A stretch of DNA of 39,304 nt. Source: Nitrospirota bacterium. Its GTDB lineage: Bacteria; NPL-UPA2; JAADIA01. Position numbers and translations under genes: made by a program. Shown piece after piece: positions 2,527 through 29,525 of the stretch (positions are counted from its first letter, which is position 1; each line of letters begins with the position of its first letter). Location: the NCBI GenBank assembly GCA_013151555.1, contig JAADIA010000083.1, positions 1 through 39,304 on the forward strand. Reading direction: 5' to 3'. The notes beneath the pieces were generated by a model. It saw nothing but the letters and a program-made list of their open reading frames with translations, was not told the origin of the DNA and ran no database searches.

Positions 2527-2555
2527 TTGACAAAACGGTTATATTTGGATATAAT
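2527..2555 (+). promoter_or_regulatory. consensus sigma70 promoter of the riboswitch-controlled operon
   Basis: TTGACA at 2527-2532, exactly 17 bp of spacer, and TATAAT at 2550-2555. Both hexamers are perfect. Transcription would start near 2562, about 50 nt before the aptamer core, so strong constitutive initiation with control downstream by the riboswitch is the natural reading. Confidence 0.85.
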
Positions 2556-2599
2556 TACTTTCGAGCTTAAGAGAAAACGATTGTTCCTCTCAAGGGTTC

Positions 2600-2692
2600 A
2601 TATCCGAAAAGGCAAACTCGGAGAAATCCGGGGACGCAAAGTCATAGGGTCTAAGGTAGGTGCTTCCTGCTAAGACAGCCTGGCGTACCGAT
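2600..2692 (+). promoter_or_regulatory. cyclic di-GMP-I riboswitch aptamer (GEMM-I)
   Basis: Matches the GEMM-I architecture in order: GGCAAA (2611-2616); a hairpin CUCGGA / UCCGGG capped by a GAAA tetraloop (2617-2632); the invariant core GACGCAAAG (2633-2641); the receptor strand GGGTCTAAGG (2647-2656); its partner GCTAAGACAGCC (2669-2680); and the closing TGGCGTACC (2681-2689). Such aptamers bind c-di-GMP and control motility, pilus and adhesion genes. Here the aptamer lies between a perfect promoter and a hairpin with a T-run, ahead of a HAMP protein and a pilin-like protein. Whether binding turns the operon on or off cannot be read with certainty. Confidence 0.9.
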
Positions 2693-2732
2693 AACGAGGT
2701 ATCGCCGGAGAAGTAGGAAAACTTGCTAAGAT

Positions 2733-2774
2733 AGCCAGACTACCGAAGATACGGTAGACTGGCTCTTTTATTAT
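2733..2774 (+). terminator. intrinsic terminator / expression platform of the c-di-GMP riboswitch
   Basis: AGCCAGACTACCG (2733-2745), loop AAGATA, then CGGTAGACTGGCT (2752-2764) with one internal A-A mismatch, running into TCTTTTATTAT. Its 5' arm and the bases before it (from 2714) closely copy the aptamer's 3' half at 2656-2690, so the two may compete for the same partner. Confidence 0.8.
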
Positions 2775-2844
2775 ATATGATATTCCTCCCCCTTTACAAA
2801 ATCCTGAAACCATGATATGCTCCCCTAAAAGGGAGGTGAGACCA

Positions 2845-3441
2845 ATGGAAAAAAGGAGGAGGAAACTTATTGTTAACCGGCAATTTCAGTCTAAATATCT
2901 GGTTCTAACGCTGGGGTTGATGATTGTAGTTGCTGTGATATTAGCCTGGATAACTTTTTACATTAACTGGTCACGCTTGAGCAGCAACTACCCCCAAATA
3001 CTCGTAGAAAGGGGCTTATACCAGGTTTTCCAACAGATAAGCGGGACTATTTTCTGGACGAACCTGGCAATAATTTTCGTTGCCGTCTGCGTGGGAGGAA
3101 CCTTAGTTTTAGTGGCTTCCCAGCGTATTGCCGGCCCTTTAATCCGCTTCAAAAAAGTCGCTGAGTCCATTGCCGAGGGGGAACCGGTCACTACGATAAG
3201 GTTGCGAAAAAAAGACGAGTTGCGAGGAACAGAAAAAGACATCAACAAGATTATAAAAGCTGTGAATGAGTTACAGTCGAAGAATAGCGAGATGAATAAA
3301 GAGATATCCAACATCAGAGAAAAATTATCTCATAATCTGGAGCGGGAAATAATCTCCCGAGAAAGTTTAGCAGCAACGGTTCAGCAGTTAGCGGAGATGG
3401 TTACCAAATTTCGCTCTACCAAGTCTGAGCAGAGGAGGTGA
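2845..3441 (+). CDS. HAMP-domain inner-membrane protein
   Basis: A 198-residue protein with two membrane helices (about residues 19-41 and 70-91), a short periplasmic segment between them, a HAMP-like linker beginning near RIAGPLIRFKKVAESIAEGE, and a coiled-coil C-terminus to the end. There is no kinase, cyclase or methyl-accepting domain, so it is a stand-alone signal relay or scaffold rather than a complete receptor. The chosen ATG has an excellent GGGAGGTGAG seven bases upstream; an upstream ATG at 2812 lies before that RBS and is unlikely. The gene is the first in the c-di-GMP riboswitch operon, and the next gene begins 7 bp after its stop. Its role is unknown. A sensor or assembly partner for the pilin-FecR protein is inference. 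Confidence 0.8.
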   Translation: MEKRRRKLIVNRQFQSKYLVLTLGLMIVVAVILAWITFYINWSRLSSNYPQILVERGLYQVFQQISGTIFWTNLAIIFVAVCVGGTLVLVASQRIAGPLIRFKKVAESIAEGEPVTTIRLRKKDELRGTEKDINKIIKAVNELQSKNSEMNKEISNIREKLSHNLEREIISRESLAATVQQLAEMVTKFRSTKSEQRR

Positions 3442-3448
3442 AAAAACT

Positions 3449-4309
3449 ATGAAGAAAAAATTTGCCAGGAGAAAAGGTTTTACCCTCATTGAACTGCTGG
3501 TAGCGATAGCGATAATTGCTGTCCTCACCGGTATGGGAATAAGATCTTACTCTTCCCTGATGAAAAGGGTAAAAGAAGCTTCCTCCCAGACAAACCTCGC
3601 TGCCATCAATGTTGCCCTGAACATGTACAAAAAGGACCAGGGAAATTTCCCCCCCGATGGAAAAGGTAGCGACCTATACACAGCTTTAGCGGAATATGAG
3701 GTAGGGAAAACCCTCTTCATGAACCCCTATAATGGCAAGAACAGCGAGAATCTTTATGTGAACCGCACCTTCGATGAGCAAGACAAGGCCTTCGTCCTTG
3801 CCAACCCTTCCACCAGGAAGAAAGAGACAACGGTTCTCCTTTTCGGCCACGAACCTCAGAAGCTGCCTCTGCAAGAAGTTACCTATGGTGGGAACCCGAT
3901 CAAACCGGGAGAAACGGTAACCGGAGGCGTTATGGATTTCGGCGGAGGGACCACGGTAAAAGCAGACCCCGGGACGAAAATGATGTTAATCCAGTCATTT
4001 GAATTAGCGGATGGGACTCCCTACGGACTGGTAAGAGTCGACGATGCCGGAAAAGTGAAGGTAAAGGTCACTCCGGGCTGGAAGTTTGAGGTAATCACCC
4101 CCGCCGCTATCGCCGGCGTTGAGGGAACTCAGTTTATAGTAAAGGTGATTGATAAGACAGAGACAGAGATAGATGTAACTAAAGGCAAAGTCTGGGTTAC
4201 AGAGCGGACAGGGAAAGGAAAGACGATCGTTACCGCAGGAAGAACAGTGAGGGTAAAGAGGGGTAAGCCGCCAATCTCAGAGGATAATGGTCACCACGAT
4301 AATGGTTAA
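3449..4309 (+). CDS. type IV pilin-like N-terminus fused to a FecR-like domain
   Basis: 286 residues. The N-terminus RRKGFTLIELLVAIAIIAVL is a type III (class 3) prepilin signal: processing after G10, F11 as the new N-terminus, and E15 as the +5 glutamate. Residues about 11-110 look like a GspG/pilin-type pseudopilin (long helix, then NMYKKDQGNFPPDGKG). Residues about 165-270 read as a FecR-like module, with ITPAAIAGVEGTQFIVKV followed by a strand-rich segment DVTKGKVWVTE and VTAGRTVRVKRGK. FecR domains normally sit in periplasmic anti-sigma or surface proteins, so a pilin-anchored version would place the domain in a pilus tip or secretion pseudopilus. It is translated with the HAMP gene (RBS GAGGAGGTG in the preceding stop region). 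A terminator follows. Confidence 0.85.
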   Translation: MKKKFARRKGFTLIELLVAIAIIAVLTGMGIRSYSSLMKRVKEASSQTNLAAINVALNMYKKDQGNFPPDGKGSDLYTALAEYEVGKTLFMNPYNGKNSENLYVNRTFDEQDKAFVLANPSTRKKETTVLLFGHEPQKLPLQEVTYGGNPIKPGETVTGGVMDFGGGTTVKADPGTKMMLIQSFELADGTPYGLVRVDDAGKVKVKVTPGWKFEVITPAAIAGVEGTQFIVKVIDKTETEIDVTKGKVWVTERTGKGKTIVTAGRTVRVKRGKPPISEDNGHHDNG

Positions 4310-4344
4310 CCAGTAATGGTCAGACTTAGAGAATAGTACAAGCT

Positions 4345-4397
4345 AAGGCAGGGGTGCAGATGATAGCAAAACATCGAGCTCCTCTGCCTTGTTTTTA
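4345..4397 (+). terminator. intrinsic terminator after the pilin-FecR gene
   Basis: AAGGCAGGGG (4345-4354) pairs with CTCCTCTGCCTT ending at 4390. An inner GATG/CATC pair shortens the loop, and GTTTTT follows directly. The CHASE2 gene downstream therefore either depends on read-through or has its own promoter. Confidence 0.75.
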
Positions 4398-4493
4398 AGG
4401 ACAGACTACAAGATTAAGACAAGTTTTGTTTTCTTTTAACCCTTCAAGTTCAACCCTTGTGTTGATAAAGTCTTTTTCGGCAGGGAGTAAAGA

Positions 4494-6752
4494 TTGAGTA
4501 AGAAGATAAAAGAAAAAGGGTTCTTCTTGCTCGCCGGTTTGTTAATCGGCGTCCTGGTCCTGCTTCTGAACGAAATGGGAGTATTCGAACGTTTGGAGCT
4601 GATGACTCTTGACCTGAGGTATAAGGTTAACGAAGGGAAGCGATATAAGAGAAATGAAGTCGTCCTGGTAGTCATCCGGCCTGAAGATATTAAGGAATTA
4701 GGGAAATTTTCTTCCTGGCCCCGTTCTTACTATGCTCAGGTCATCGACCAGCTCCGCGAAGCAGGGGCAAAAGTCATTTGCTTCGACCTTTTTTTCACCT
4801 CCCCTCGCTCGCCGGATAAAGATCGTCTTCTCATAGAAGCTACCCGGAAAGCCGGGGATGTCCTCTATCCTGTCTTCTACCCTCAGAACCTGACGGAGGA
4901 GATGTTTCGGGGTGGACCCGCCTTCGTTCCTGAACTGAAAATGAATATCCCGGAATTAGCCGAGGCCGCTGCCGGTCAGGGACACATAAACCTGCAAGTG
5001 GATATAGACGGAAAGGTAAGAAGGGTTCCCTTTGCCATCTCCTACGAAGGGGAAATTTTTCCCGCCACCGGTTTGCTCAGCGTCCTGAAGTACCGGGACA
5101 TCCCCCTGAAAGAACTAAGGCAAAAGGGGGATTTTCTCTATGCCGGGGACTACAAAATCCCCCTGGATGAGAAAGGGAATATCTTAATCAAAAACTTCGG
5201 CATCATGGGAGGAGATGAAATTCCCTGGTTTCACTTTGCCGATGTGAAAGCAGGAAGAATCCCTAAGGAATTTTTCCAAGGAAAGATTGTCATTGTTGGT
5301 TATACCATTTCCGGGGGAACAAAAACGGATATCTACCTCACCCCCCGGGAGCGCCAGTTCGGAGTTACCATCATCGCCAGTCTCATCGATACCATCCTGA
5401 GGCGAGATTTTCTCCGATATTTACCTCTAAGGATCAACAGCCTTATTATTTTTTCCGTATCTCTTGTCTGGATTCTCATTATGACGGGAGGAGATTTTCG
5501 CCGTAACACCCTTTTAACCGCAGGATTAATCGTCGCCGAAGGAGGAATTTCCGTCTATCTCTTTGAGAAGCCGGGAATCATCCTCGAGGTTATTCCCTTA
5601 TTAACGGTTATCTTCTCTAATTATATCCTGGGCACCATTGTGGTAAGTAGAAAAACTGATTTAGCTATGCAAGAAGGAGAGAGACGCCTGAAGATGTTTC
5701 AGGAGATGGCCAAGACGACGACTTCGTCCCTGGGGGAAAAAGGCTCTCTTGACTTTATCGTCTCTCGCATTGCTCAGGCGGTAAGAACAGAACTTTGCAT
5801 TCTGCGCGAGTTCGATAAAGAAACCGGAACGTTGAAGCTTGCGGCTACTTATGGTTTAGAGGAAGATATAAGAAATCCGGATATATTCGAGTTCGACCTG
5901 AAGTTAGCCGAGGAAGCTATCGCCTCATCGGAACCGTTACTCATTCGCAGGGAAGAGGACTCATCTACAGGCGAGAAAACTTCCGTTATGTATAGCGTCC
6001 TGAGAATAAAAGGCGAAGTAATCGGGACGATTTCCGTTCGCGGAAAGGTTGCCCCCACTTCCCGAAATACCTTTTTCACCAAAGAGGATGCGGATCTCTT
6101 TGCTACTCTCTCTTACGAAGCTACCGTAGCGGTAAAGAATGCCCAATTATACCGGGAAGTTCAGAAACTCTTCGTGGATGCAGTAGCCTCCCTGGCAGCC
6201 ACCATCGATGCCAAGGATTCCTATACTGAGCATCATTCAGAGCGAGTATCCCTTTACTCTATAGCTATTGCCGAGGAATTGGAACTTTCCCAGAAAGATA
6301 AAGAGGCCCTAAAGTTAGCCGCTACCCTGCATGACATCGGGAAGATCGGAGTACCCGAATCCGTACTGAAGAAACCGGGAAAACTGACCGACGAAGAATA
6401 TAACGAAATGAAACTCCATCCTGTCAAGGGAGCCCGGATAATGGAACATATCGGCCAGTTACAACCGATTATCCCCGGGATGCGCCATCACCACGAGCGT
6501 TACGACGGGAAAGGCTACCCCGACGGGTTAATGGGAGAGAGTATCCCGCTCATGGGCCGGATTATTGCCGTAGCCGATACCTATGATGCCATGACCAGCG
6601 CCCGTCCCTACCGGGGAGCCTGCACTCCGGAGGTTGCTTGCCGGGAAATCAAGAAAAATATGGGCACTCAATTCGACCCCCGGATTGCGGAAGCTTTTCT
6701 TCTCGCCTCCTCCAAGGGTAAGATATCCTCATTAAGCTTGGAATCCGTATGA
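4494..6752 (+). CDS. CHASE2-GAF-HD-GYP protein, predicted c-di-GMP phosphodiesterase
   Basis: 752 residues starting at a TTG with GGGAG seven bases upstream. In order: an N-terminal membrane helix (about 8-25), an extracytoplasmic CHASE2 sensor (about 30-295; DLRYKV, WPRSYYAQVIDQLREAGAKV, PRERQFGV), three membrane helices (about 305-385), a GAF domain (about 400-550) and an HD-GYP domain (about 560-740). The catalytic marks are complete: H613-D614 in HDIGKIGVP and HHHERYDGKGYPDG with GYP at 674-676. HD-GYP enzymes hydrolyse c-di-GMP to pGpG or GMP. CHASE2 and FecR genes are often neighbours in bacteria, and here a FecR-bearing pilin lies just upstream in a c-di-GMP-riboswitch operon, suggesting envelope sensing coupled to second-messenger removal. 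Confidence 0.93.
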   Translation: MSKKIKEKGFFLLAGLLIGVLVLLLNEMGVFERLELMTLDLRYKVNEGKRYKRNEVVLVVIRPEDIKELGKFSSWPRSYYAQVIDQLREAGAKVICFDLFFTSPRSPDKDRLLIEATRKAGDVLYPVFYPQNLTEEMFRGGPAFVPELKMNIPELAEAAAGQGHINLQVDIDGKVRRVPFAISYEGEIFPATGLLSVLKYRDIPLKELRQKGDFLYAGDYKIPLDEKGNILIKNFGIMGGDEIPWFHFADVKAGRIPKEFFQGKIVIVGYTISGGTKTDIYLTPRERQFGVTIIASLIDTILRRDFLRYLPLRINSLIIFSVSLVWILIMTGGDFRRNTLLTAGLIVAEGGISVYLFEKPGIILEVIPLLTVIFSNYILGTIVVSRKTDLAMQEGERRLKMFQEMAKTTTSSLGEKGSLDFIVSRIAQAVRTELCILREFDKETGTLKLAATYGLEEDIRNPDIFEFDLKLAEEAIASSEPLLIRREEDSSTGEKTSVMYSVLRIKGEVIGTISVRGKVAPTSRNTFFTKEDADLFATLSYEATVAVKNAQLYREVQKLFVDAVASLAATIDAKDSYTEHHSERVSLYSIAIAEELELSQKDKEALKLAATLHDIGKIGVPESVLKKPGKLTDEEYNEMKLHPVKGARIMEHIGQLQPIIPGMRHHHERYDGKGYPDGLMGESIPLMGRIIAVADTYDAMTSARPYRGACTPEVACREIKKNMGTQFDPRIAEAFLLASSKGKISSLSLESV

Positions 6753-22634: not shown

Positions 22635-22985
22635 CTACATCTCTTTGGCAAATCTCACAATTCTATCCCTTGTATCGTCTTCCAGATCCTCGAAAGCTAT
22701 TCCCACTTCGTAGTCAGTCATCTTATGGGGAAATAGATGGTAGTGTTCTTGGTACCAGCTTACCTTCCCCCGGCACTTTATAGATTGCTCCTCATCAGGC
22801 AGAAGTAATTCTATTCCGACAATGGAACTTACTTCCGGTTGTTCCTTCATGATAAGATCGGTTCCACCCCCACCGATATTTTGAATAATAGCTTCCCCGG
22901 GTTCTTTTCCTTGCATTTTCACCCAGGCAACAAGATGGCACGATCTCCTCAAGAATTGTCTTCTTTTCCTCCCACCCCAGATCAT
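22635..22985 (-). CDS. PilZ-domain protein with variant c-di-GMP motif
   Basis: 116 residues, a single PilZ beta-barrel. The N-terminal RxxxR motif is present (R9 to R13 in RRQFLRR). The second motif, normally D/N-x-S-x-x-G, reads NIGGGG (N36 to G41) with Gly in place of Ser. Later strands such as GKVSWYQEH and DYEVGIAFEDL are typical. PilZ domains bind c-di-GMP and regulate motility or exopolysaccharide; the Ser-to-Gly change may alter affinity. The gene stands alone between the sigma factor and the carbohydrate genes, with its own likely promoter at 23095-23124. Confidence 0.85.
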   Translation of the reverse strand: MIWGGRKRRQFLRRSCHLVAWVKMQGKEPGEAIIQNIGGGGTDLIMKEQPEVSSIVGIELLLPDEEQSIKCRGKVSWYQEHYHLFPHKMTDYEVGIAFEDLEDDTRDRIVRFAKEM

Positions 22986-28767: not shown

Positions 28768-29493
28768 TTACCGCTTCTTCCTCCCGGCAACAAGCCCTGC
28801 CAGTCCAGTGGCAAGGAGAAGCAACGTCCCCGGTTCCGGGATTACATTACCGGGGCGCACTGCCCAGGTATAGGGATAAGTGCTTGTCTTGTAGAACGCG
28901 GTCTGGTACCCATAGACGAAACGGAAGAACCACGCATAATCCGGAGTGGCAGCATCCGCGGTATCCGACCAGTAGGCATAGGGCAGCAGGTTAGTAAAGG
29001 GGCCGGTGTTGTTTAACCCCCAGCCCAGTTGGGGACTACTACCAGAAGTATCGTAATACCCCAGGTTCCCCAGATTTATATAATACATGTAGGCCATCTC
29101 GCTGCCGGTGCTACCTGGATATACCGAACCCGGAGCGCCGACATTATACCCTACGTCAGTGGAACCATCATAACTAAAGATATAGTTATTATACTCATAA
29201 CTCGTCCCATTAACAGGGAGTGTTTGTGGCAACCGCCAGTCAGTATAGGTATAATCACGCACTGAATCGTAATAGGATAAGGTGTCAGCCCAGGTCACAG
29301 CCTGGGACCAGGTCATCATCCCATCTGCATCGTAACCTGAAGTCTGCGCATAATTGGCATCCTGGAGCCAGGTGATATCCAGCACATTATCGTAGATAAG
29401 CCCACCTCCTTGATTAATAAGCAAAGCCTGGGCCGGAAGCGAAAACCCCAGAAGCACCGATACGGTAAGCAATAAAGCCGATAACCTTTTCAT
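28768..29493 (-). CDS. PEP-CTERM protein with DUF1566-like domain
   Basis: About 241 residues from the ATG at 29493, chosen for the strong GGAGAGGAGAGAG directly upstream; a GTG at 29511 is upstream of that RBS. A signal peptide (MKRLSALLLTVSVLLGFSLP, AQA) leads to a DUF1566/Lcl-like fold beginning LIYDNVLDITWLQDANYAQT and containing TDWRLPQT and YWSDTADAATPDYAWFFRF. The C-terminus VIPEPGTLLLLATGLAGLVA and GRKKR is a canonical PEP-CTERM sorting signal for exosortase. The upstream region carries a sigma54 promoter and a structured leader, matching the known sigma54 (PrsK/PrsR-associated) control of many PEP-CTERM genes. The protein is rich in Tyr, Ser and Gly, as in extracellular matrix proteins. 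Confidence 0.92.
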   Translation of the reverse strand: MKRLSALLLTVSVLLGFSLPAQALLINQGGGLIYDNVLDITWLQDANYAQTSGYDADGMMTWSQAVTWADTLSYYDSVRDYTYTDWRLPQTLPVNGTSYEYNNYIFSYDGSTDVGYNVGAPGSVYPGSTGSEMAYMYYINLGNLGYYDTSGSSPQLGWGLNNTGPFTNLLPYAYWSDTADAATPDYAWFFRFVYGYQTAFYKTSTYPYTWAVRPGNVIPEPGTLLLLATGLAGLVAGRKKR

Positions 29494-29525
29494 CTCTCTC
29501 CTCTCCTTCACAAATCCCTCCTTGA

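Follow-up and report, generated by a model that had tools for sequence, protein, structure and literature searches.

A candidate pilin-anchored form of FecR-CHASE2 signalling behind a duplicated c-di-GMP-I riboswitch leader in a Nitrospirota bacterium

Genes for FecR proteins are linked to genes for CHASE2 receptors in Campylobacterota, with adenylate cyclases (PMC9239204), and in Burkholderiales, with Burkholderia histidine kinases (PMC5192318). In riboswitches of the GEMM-I class, a position in the 5' junction of the aptamer steers ligand selectivity (PMC9262584). Here we describe a locus of a Nitrospirota bacterium (contig JAADIA010000083.1) that brings such elements together: a GEMM-I riboswitch followed by genes for a HAMP-like membrane protein, a prepilin-FecR fusion and a CHASE2-GAF-HD-GYP protein, the predicted enzyme of cyclic diguanosine monophosphate (c-di-GMP) breakdown. 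The window is the whole 39,304-nucleotide stretch that was analysed. The best overall explanation, to which we give a probability of about one half, is that the three proteins make up a single signalling unit of the inner membrane, in which pilin-anchored FecR-CHASE2 signalling would act through a c-di-GMP phosphodiesterase.

Three genes in a conserved order

2845..3441, + strand: HAMP-like membrane protein of 198 residues, with two transmembrane segments and a predicted coiled coil, without an output domain (Pfam and transmembrane prediction)
3449..4309, + strand: prepilin-FecR fusion of 286 residues, with a type IV prepilin N-terminus, a GspG-like middle and a FecR domain (Pfam N_methyl 35.2 bits, FecR 36.7 bits)
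4494..6752, + strand: predicted CHASE2-GAF-HD-GYP phosphodiesterase of 752 residues (Pfam CHASE2 1.3e-44, HD_5 5.6e-41, GAF_3 1.7e-7)

The middle gene encodes the pilin-FecR fusion that an earlier note, made from the letters of the sequence, had recognised, and both the N_methyl and the FecR match exceed their cut-offs. The N-terminus carries a class III signal (GFxxxE) followed by a hydrophobic helix, matches TIGR02532 as well, and includes the only transmembrane segment (residues 13-31). The FecR domain (PF04773) scores 36.7 bits against a cut-off of 24, and the FecR domains of relatives pass too. The G, F and E of the prepilin motif are invariant in 10 aligned homologues. Because the motif with its glutamate at +5 is kept in all complete copies, the anchor seems to be under selection as a pilin, beyond a mere membrane helix. 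The core of the FecR domain, FEV[IV][TA]P..I[AT]GV.GT, is near-invariant, and FEVITPAxIAGVEGT is the best-conserved stretch that we saw. A single-sequence AlphaFold model of the protein had a mean predicted local distance difference test score of 48 and was not used. Among the neighbouring open reading frames and their Pfam matches, no sigma factor and no TonB receptor were found next to the FecR gene; the locus is thus not arranged as in classical FecI-FecR iron signalling, where an extracytoplasmic function sigma factor and a TonB receptor are adjacent.

Homology to pilin-FecR extends over the full length of the protein to relatives in two other phyla; the window protein and that of genome G132 are 31% identical over 262 columns (E 2e-23). 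We searched 386 genomes with a profile of these two proteins, and then 35 genomes of the phylum to which G132 belongs, here called the second phylum. This search revealed pilin-FecR in 21 of the 35, three of them with partial copies only, cut at contig ends or split between two frames. Neighbourhoods were taken for 20 of the second-phylum loci and for G132, and missed open reading frames were recovered. A HAMP-like gene lies upstream of pilin-FecR in every assessable case (20/20), and a CHASE2-GAF-HD-GYP gene lies directly downstream in 19 of 20, the exception being G132. All three genes follow one another in the window's order on the same strand in 18 of the 19 fully assessable loci, so that the window and 18 further loci have a FecR gene immediately upstream of the gene for a CHASE2 receptor, as in a FecR-CHASE2 operon. 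The genes of these relatives mostly overlap or nearly touch, with gaps of at most 43 bases in intact copies; in one locus (L192 of G414) an extra pilin gene stands between the HAMP and pilin-FecR genes. The order and linkage claimed in the earlier note are therefore upheld, and the family-wide absence of linkage that it had named as the outcome speaking against it was looked for and not found, the linkage being strong in the second phylum.

Outside the second phylum the distribution is sparse. A third phylum has pilin-FecR in 3 of 44 genomes, in several copies, paired with HAMP twice and with CHASE2 never, while in the window's own phylum only the window genome has it (1 of 9). When the sampling around the second phylum was widened to 385 genomes, no further phyla with pilin-FecR came to light. 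That the operon was recently acquired from the second phylum was considered and is unsupported: the window's pilin-FecR is only 26-32% and its HD-GYP protein only 25-30% identical to the relatives, and these window copies are deep-branching.

These data also bear on a simpler role for the fusion. It might be a mere minor pilin or pseudopilin, with its FecR-like beta domain serving as an adhesin or structural tip, and the HD-GYP protein a neighbour under common regulation, which adjusts c-di-GMP to control the pilus without direct contact between FecR and CHASE2. The FecR part does resemble models of spirochaete surface adhesins and lipoproteins (Lsa33, LipL45), below their cut-offs, and pilin-FecR is found without CHASE2 in G132 and in the three third-phylum genomes. 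We nevertheless hold this alternative to be unlikely, since the order with CHASE2-HD-GYP is fixed in 18 loci and unrelated operons repeatedly pair FecR with CHASE2 proteins.

The first gene was described in the earlier note as a HAMP membrane protein. Its two transmembrane segments and a HAMP-like region are present, but the direct Pfam HAMP match is weak (E 0.05, below the cut-off), whereas paralogues from its own genome, on contigs C59 and C84, exceed that cut-off. The transmembrane-HAMP portions of two models, CpxA and WalK, also match the protein at about 5e-7, short of the cut-offs set for these models. This small HAMP family is widespread. Its genes adjoin pilin genes at 8 of 35 loci, compared with 3% of the other genes nearby; in G181 the family adjoins a CHASE2-cyclase. 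An unusual member in G137 (L114:5953-7035, - strand) forms an in-frame fusion with a complete prepilin, giving a protein of 360 residues with the pilin motif at residue 188. The paralogue on contig C59 (L082:6101-13219) is clustered with genes for a SurA-like lipoprotein, a subtilase-like PEP-CTERM protein, a 696-residue FecR protein and a TPR protein, and this is the genome's only FecR locus besides the window operon. In G008 (L085:8079-14439), many very small open reading frames of about 60-120 residues adjoin a pilin/HAMP pair.

In the third gene, CHASE2, GAF_3 and HD_5 all score above their cut-offs, in agreement with the CHASE2-sensing HD-GYP architecture read earlier. The protein aligns to the c-di-GMP phosphodiesterase PmGH across GAF and HD-GYP, and its HD, H, HHExxDGxGYP and D motifs are all present. 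The catalytic residues, previously called complete, comprise these motifs and 7 of the 8 PmGH metal ligands; the eighth position, the bridging Glu185 of PmGH, is a tyrosine. The window domain thus belongs to the Y/F subfamily (DSYTEHH) and lacks the E/D-T-G signature of trinuclear enzymes, whereas all readable HD-GYP domains from the relatives' operons have DRETGxH and belong to the E-T-G subfamily. A domain tree separates the two types with a support of 1.0, in a sample that is biased because the outside sequences were chosen by likeness to the window. Given this split, and with the bias of the comparison set as a reservation, it is doubtful that the window enzyme is a simple orthologue of the relatives' enzyme. 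The same slot is thus filled by two kinds of HD-GYP, through an exchange of catalytic domains or a pairing that arose twice, and either would speak for a functional tie. The relatives retain the HD-GYP motifs apart from G386 and G269 (L187:1545-3899 and L190:1577-3895), whose HD-GYP proteins have HQE for HHE and have lost one metal ligand; these two are perhaps degenerate sensors.

A leader shared with a type IV pilus operon

2527..2555, + strand: sigma-70 promoter TTGACA-17-TATAAT (consensus 12/12; also conserved in the C82 contig's paralogous leader)
2601..2692, + strand: c-di-GMP-I (GEMM-I) riboswitch aptamer (RF01051, 64.0 bits, cut-off 35, E 2e-10)
2640..2741, + strand: predicted antiterminator P3', in which the 5' strand of aptamer helix P3 (2640-2671) pairs with a mimic of the P3 3' strand (2712-2741)
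2680..2708, + strand: aptamer-competing hairpin (anti-aptamer candidate), which competes with the aptamer's 3' side, is part of the ligand-free minimum-energy fold and is nested in the P3' helix
2733..2769, + strand: riboswitch intrinsic terminator (hairpin 2733-2764 with a 12-base-pair stem, -18.8 kcal/mol, then UUUU)

The consensus promoter, GEMM-I aptamer and terminator that the earlier note had placed ahead of the operon were all recovered. The promoter, with a 17-base spacer, is the sole 12/12 sigma-70 consensus site of the region. The Rfam covariance search that the note had proposed, performed with cmscan, gave a match well above the cut-off that spans the whole RF01051 model (positions 1-87 of 87), and behind it lies the terminator hairpin with its U-run. 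The sequence AAAAGGCAAAC in the aptamer agrees with the RF01051 consensus at the position of the 5' junction that selects the ligand, which is a guanine and not an adenine; we take a guanine here to mark a c-di-GMP-type aptamer rather than one for cyclic GMP-AMP (cGAMP). To judge by its sequence, the aptamer is of the canonical c-di-GMP type, with c-di-GMP as its predicted ligand.

The genome contains two GEMM-I elements, both of them ahead of pilin genes. The second, on contig C82 (L084:14712-14803, - strand), heads a type IV pilus operon that encodes a pilin, PilB with MshEN and PilC and, farther downstream, PilM/PilN and others. From the -35 element to the terminator, 219 of 244 columns of the two leaders are identical (90%); beyond it, 36 of 100 are. 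RF01051 was found in 0 of the 35 second-phylum genomes, by a search that does find it in G000, and in none of the relatives' pilin-FecR operon loci at the gathering threshold. An ancestral place for the riboswitch in the module was rejected on these grounds. Because the leaders are near-identical while the relatives are without RF01051, the riboswitch is, as far as sequence comparison can tell, a local addition: the module was wired into a c-di-GMP type IV pilus regulon via a duplicated leader, copied in either direction. The module is hence not self-contained with its riboswitch, as the earlier note had it. With a shared leader, the sensor operon and the main type IV pilus operon should both respond to c-di-GMP, and the duplication illustrates how an existing operon gets drafted into a riboswitch regulon. 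Another pilin/HAMP cluster containing a c-di-GMP riboswitch is found at L097:122-2911, where a pilin gene and a HAMP-like gene are followed by a c-di-GMP-I-GGC riboswitch (RF03167) and then by the gene for a DUF7305 protein whose N-terminus is PilX-like.

The P3 3' strand of the aptamer is repeated before and within the 5' arm of the terminator (TGCTAAGAyAGCC..TACCGA), with an alignment score that was equalled by 1 of 2000 dinucleotide shuffles. Among folds in which the terminator arm pairs with upstream sequence, the best is the P3' helix, identical in both leaders, with the hairpin 2680-2708 nested inside; the paralogous leader keeps 25 of the helix's 26 pairs, three of them with altered bases. 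This helix is incompatible with both the aptamer and the terminator, whereas those two are compatible with each other. Since P3' excludes them together and they can coexist, the leader is most likely an OFF switch under c-di-GMP, a prediction of which fold energies alone are no proof. When no ligand is present, the P3 5' strand would pair with the mimic, which overlaps the terminator arm, and antitermination would result; bound c-di-GMP would lock P3, the terminator would form and transcription would halt. The minimum-energy folds by themselves do not settle the polarity, as the terminator is present in constrained and free folds alike. The leader provides a concrete strand-mimic expression platform that is open to testing.

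The opposite polarity would make c-di-GMP an inducer of HAMP/pilin-FecR and, by read-through, of the phosphodiesterase, with the homeostatic negative feedback implied in the earlier note. A GEMM-I-class leader of a Geobacter pilus operon is indeed ON (PMC9262584). An ON switch is, however, rather improbable here, because the window's aptamer and terminator are compatible, as are those of the OFF switch Cd1 but not those of the Geobacter pilM riboswitch, and because the alternative helix of both leaders excludes the two jointly.

The gap before the HD-GYP gene

4344..4398, + strand: strong hairpin and U-rich tract in the gap between the pilin-FecR and HD-GYP genes, probable terminator or attenuator (-24.8 kcal/mol)

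The hairpin (4344-4390) has an 11-base-pair closing stem followed by GUUUUUA, and its energy was reached by 0 of 200 shuffles. Because the 184-base gap holds this strong terminator-like structure, co-transcription of the HD-GYP gene with the upstream genes is not assured. The gene may instead be an independent transcription unit, leaving the riboswitch in control of the HAMP/pilin-FecR pair only and closing no loop. Such independence, to which the gap with its hairpin and the differing HD-GYP subfamily both point, is a serious though tentative possibility; against it, the gap has no sigma-70-like promoter with at least nine matches (best 8/12), and the corresponding genes overlap or nearly touch in relatives.

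The c-di-GMP feedback loop proposed in the earlier note is plausible but unproven. It is possible insofar as the predicted enzyme would degrade the riboswitch ligand, which six GGDEF matches in the genome could supply, but the second hairpin intervenes. Moreover, given read-through, the loop would be positive and not homeostatic because the switch is predicted to be OFF: high c-di-GMP would lower its own destruction, in a bistable loop that the second hairpin would partly insulate. Elsewhere in the window, a PilZ-domain protein (22635-22985, - strand) is a further likely c-di-GMP receptor. Two genes (1450-2415 and 28768-29511, both - strand) encode proteins with PEP-CTERM-like ends, one of the two being divergent from the riboswitch promoter.

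Proposed function and related systems

In the signalling unit favoured here, the prepilin anchor would hold FecR in the periplasm, where FecR would signal to CHASE2, itself a periplasmic domain. The HAMP-like protein would be the pilin's partner in the membrane, and the output would be c-di-GMP degradation by the HD-GYP domain. On the simplest reading, pilin-FecR would report the state of the pilin or envelope to CHASE2, and c-di-GMP would be tuned in response. We infer a physical coupling of FecR and CHASE2 because other FecR-CHASE2 operons are analogous; the direction of the signal and the activity of the HD-GYP enzyme are presumed, and every protein contact in the unit is likewise ours to infer.

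Several observations weigh against this reading. G132 has HAMP and pilin-FecR genes but no CHASE2-HD-GYP gene, and the third phylum has the HAMP/pilin-FecR pair only, so that the enzyme would be dispensable. The window HD-GYP domain differs in subfamily from that of the relatives, and the module may have been separately assembled. The gene for this enzyme also lies 184 bases beyond pilin-FecR, behind a strong hairpin, whereas the gaps of intact relatives do not exceed 43 bases. Finally, the ligand-free minimum-energy fold permits the terminator, and the P3' antiterminator exceeds the minimum by 1.4 and 1.5 kcal/mol in the two leaders, which leaves the switch polarity a prediction.

A bolder and quite improbable version would make pilin-FecR a movable sensor. 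The way it is partitioned between the membrane pool and the growing pilus would set the FecR-CHASE2 contact and convert pilus extension and retraction directly into c-di-GMP degradation, while c-di-GMP would switch the pilus genes and the operon through duplicated OFF riboswitches with a strand-mimic terminator arm.

The locus ties the chemistry of type IV pilins genetically to the breakdown of c-di-GMP, a link conserved in uncultured phyla in which neither subject has been studied. If pilin-FecR does report pilus state to CHASE2, the question of how surface contact or pilus activity leads to c-di-GMP becomes testable with three genes, and pilus building and c-di-GMP level may control each other.

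A literature search on FecR with HD-GYP and on pilins with c-di-GMP-I riboswitches, beyond whose reach most subscription papers lay, turned up no account of a pilin-anchored FecR combined with CHASE2-HD-GYP or of the conservation of this combination across phyla. The Campylobacterota cluster of CHASE2-adenylate cyclase, cAMP phosphodiesterase, FecR and TPR genes (PMC9239204) likewise links a FecR protein to a CHASE2 receptor and a cyclic-nucleotide enzyme output. Its FecR is part of a protein described as outer-membrane and its nucleotide is cAMP, whereas the window has a prepilin-borne FecR, an HD-GYP domain and a HAMP-like protein, and no TPR gene. The biofilm-linked BiofilmReg operon of Burkholderia (response regulator, LysM-FecR, CHASE2 histidine kinase; PMC5192318) also has FecR directly before a CHASE2 receptor, but with a histidine kinase output and LysM in place of HD-GYP and the pilin anchor. 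PmGH of Persephonella marina (PDB 4MCW, PMC4159591) shares GAF and HD-GYP and 7 of 8 metal ligands with the window protein, which differs in the tyrosine at E185 (Y/F subfamily) and in its extra CHASE2 with membrane segments.

Among riboswitches, Cd1 of Clostridioides difficile (PMC9262584) is similar in its GEMM-I-class aptamer with a transcription terminator and in its OFF logic, aptamer and terminator being compatible. The pilM riboswitch of Geobacter metallireducens (PMC9262584) also combines a GEMM-I-class aptamer with a terminator at the head of a pilus operon. However, pilM senses cGAMP and is ON, with aptamer and terminator mutually exclusive, while the window aptamer is of the canonical c-di-GMP type and compatible with its terminator. 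The window leader differs from both in that its alternative helix is formed with a copy of the P3 3' strand that lies downstream. For a membrane receptor that reads an inner-membrane pilin, the pilin sensing attributed to PilS (Kilmury and Burrows 2016, as cited in other work) offers a precedent; PilS is a histidine kinase that binds pilin itself, whereas in the window FecR carried on the pilin is the presumed ligand. The individual parts are thus already known, and the pilin-FecR/CHASE2-HD-GYP combination is best read as a pilin-anchored variant of FecR-CHASE2 signalling.

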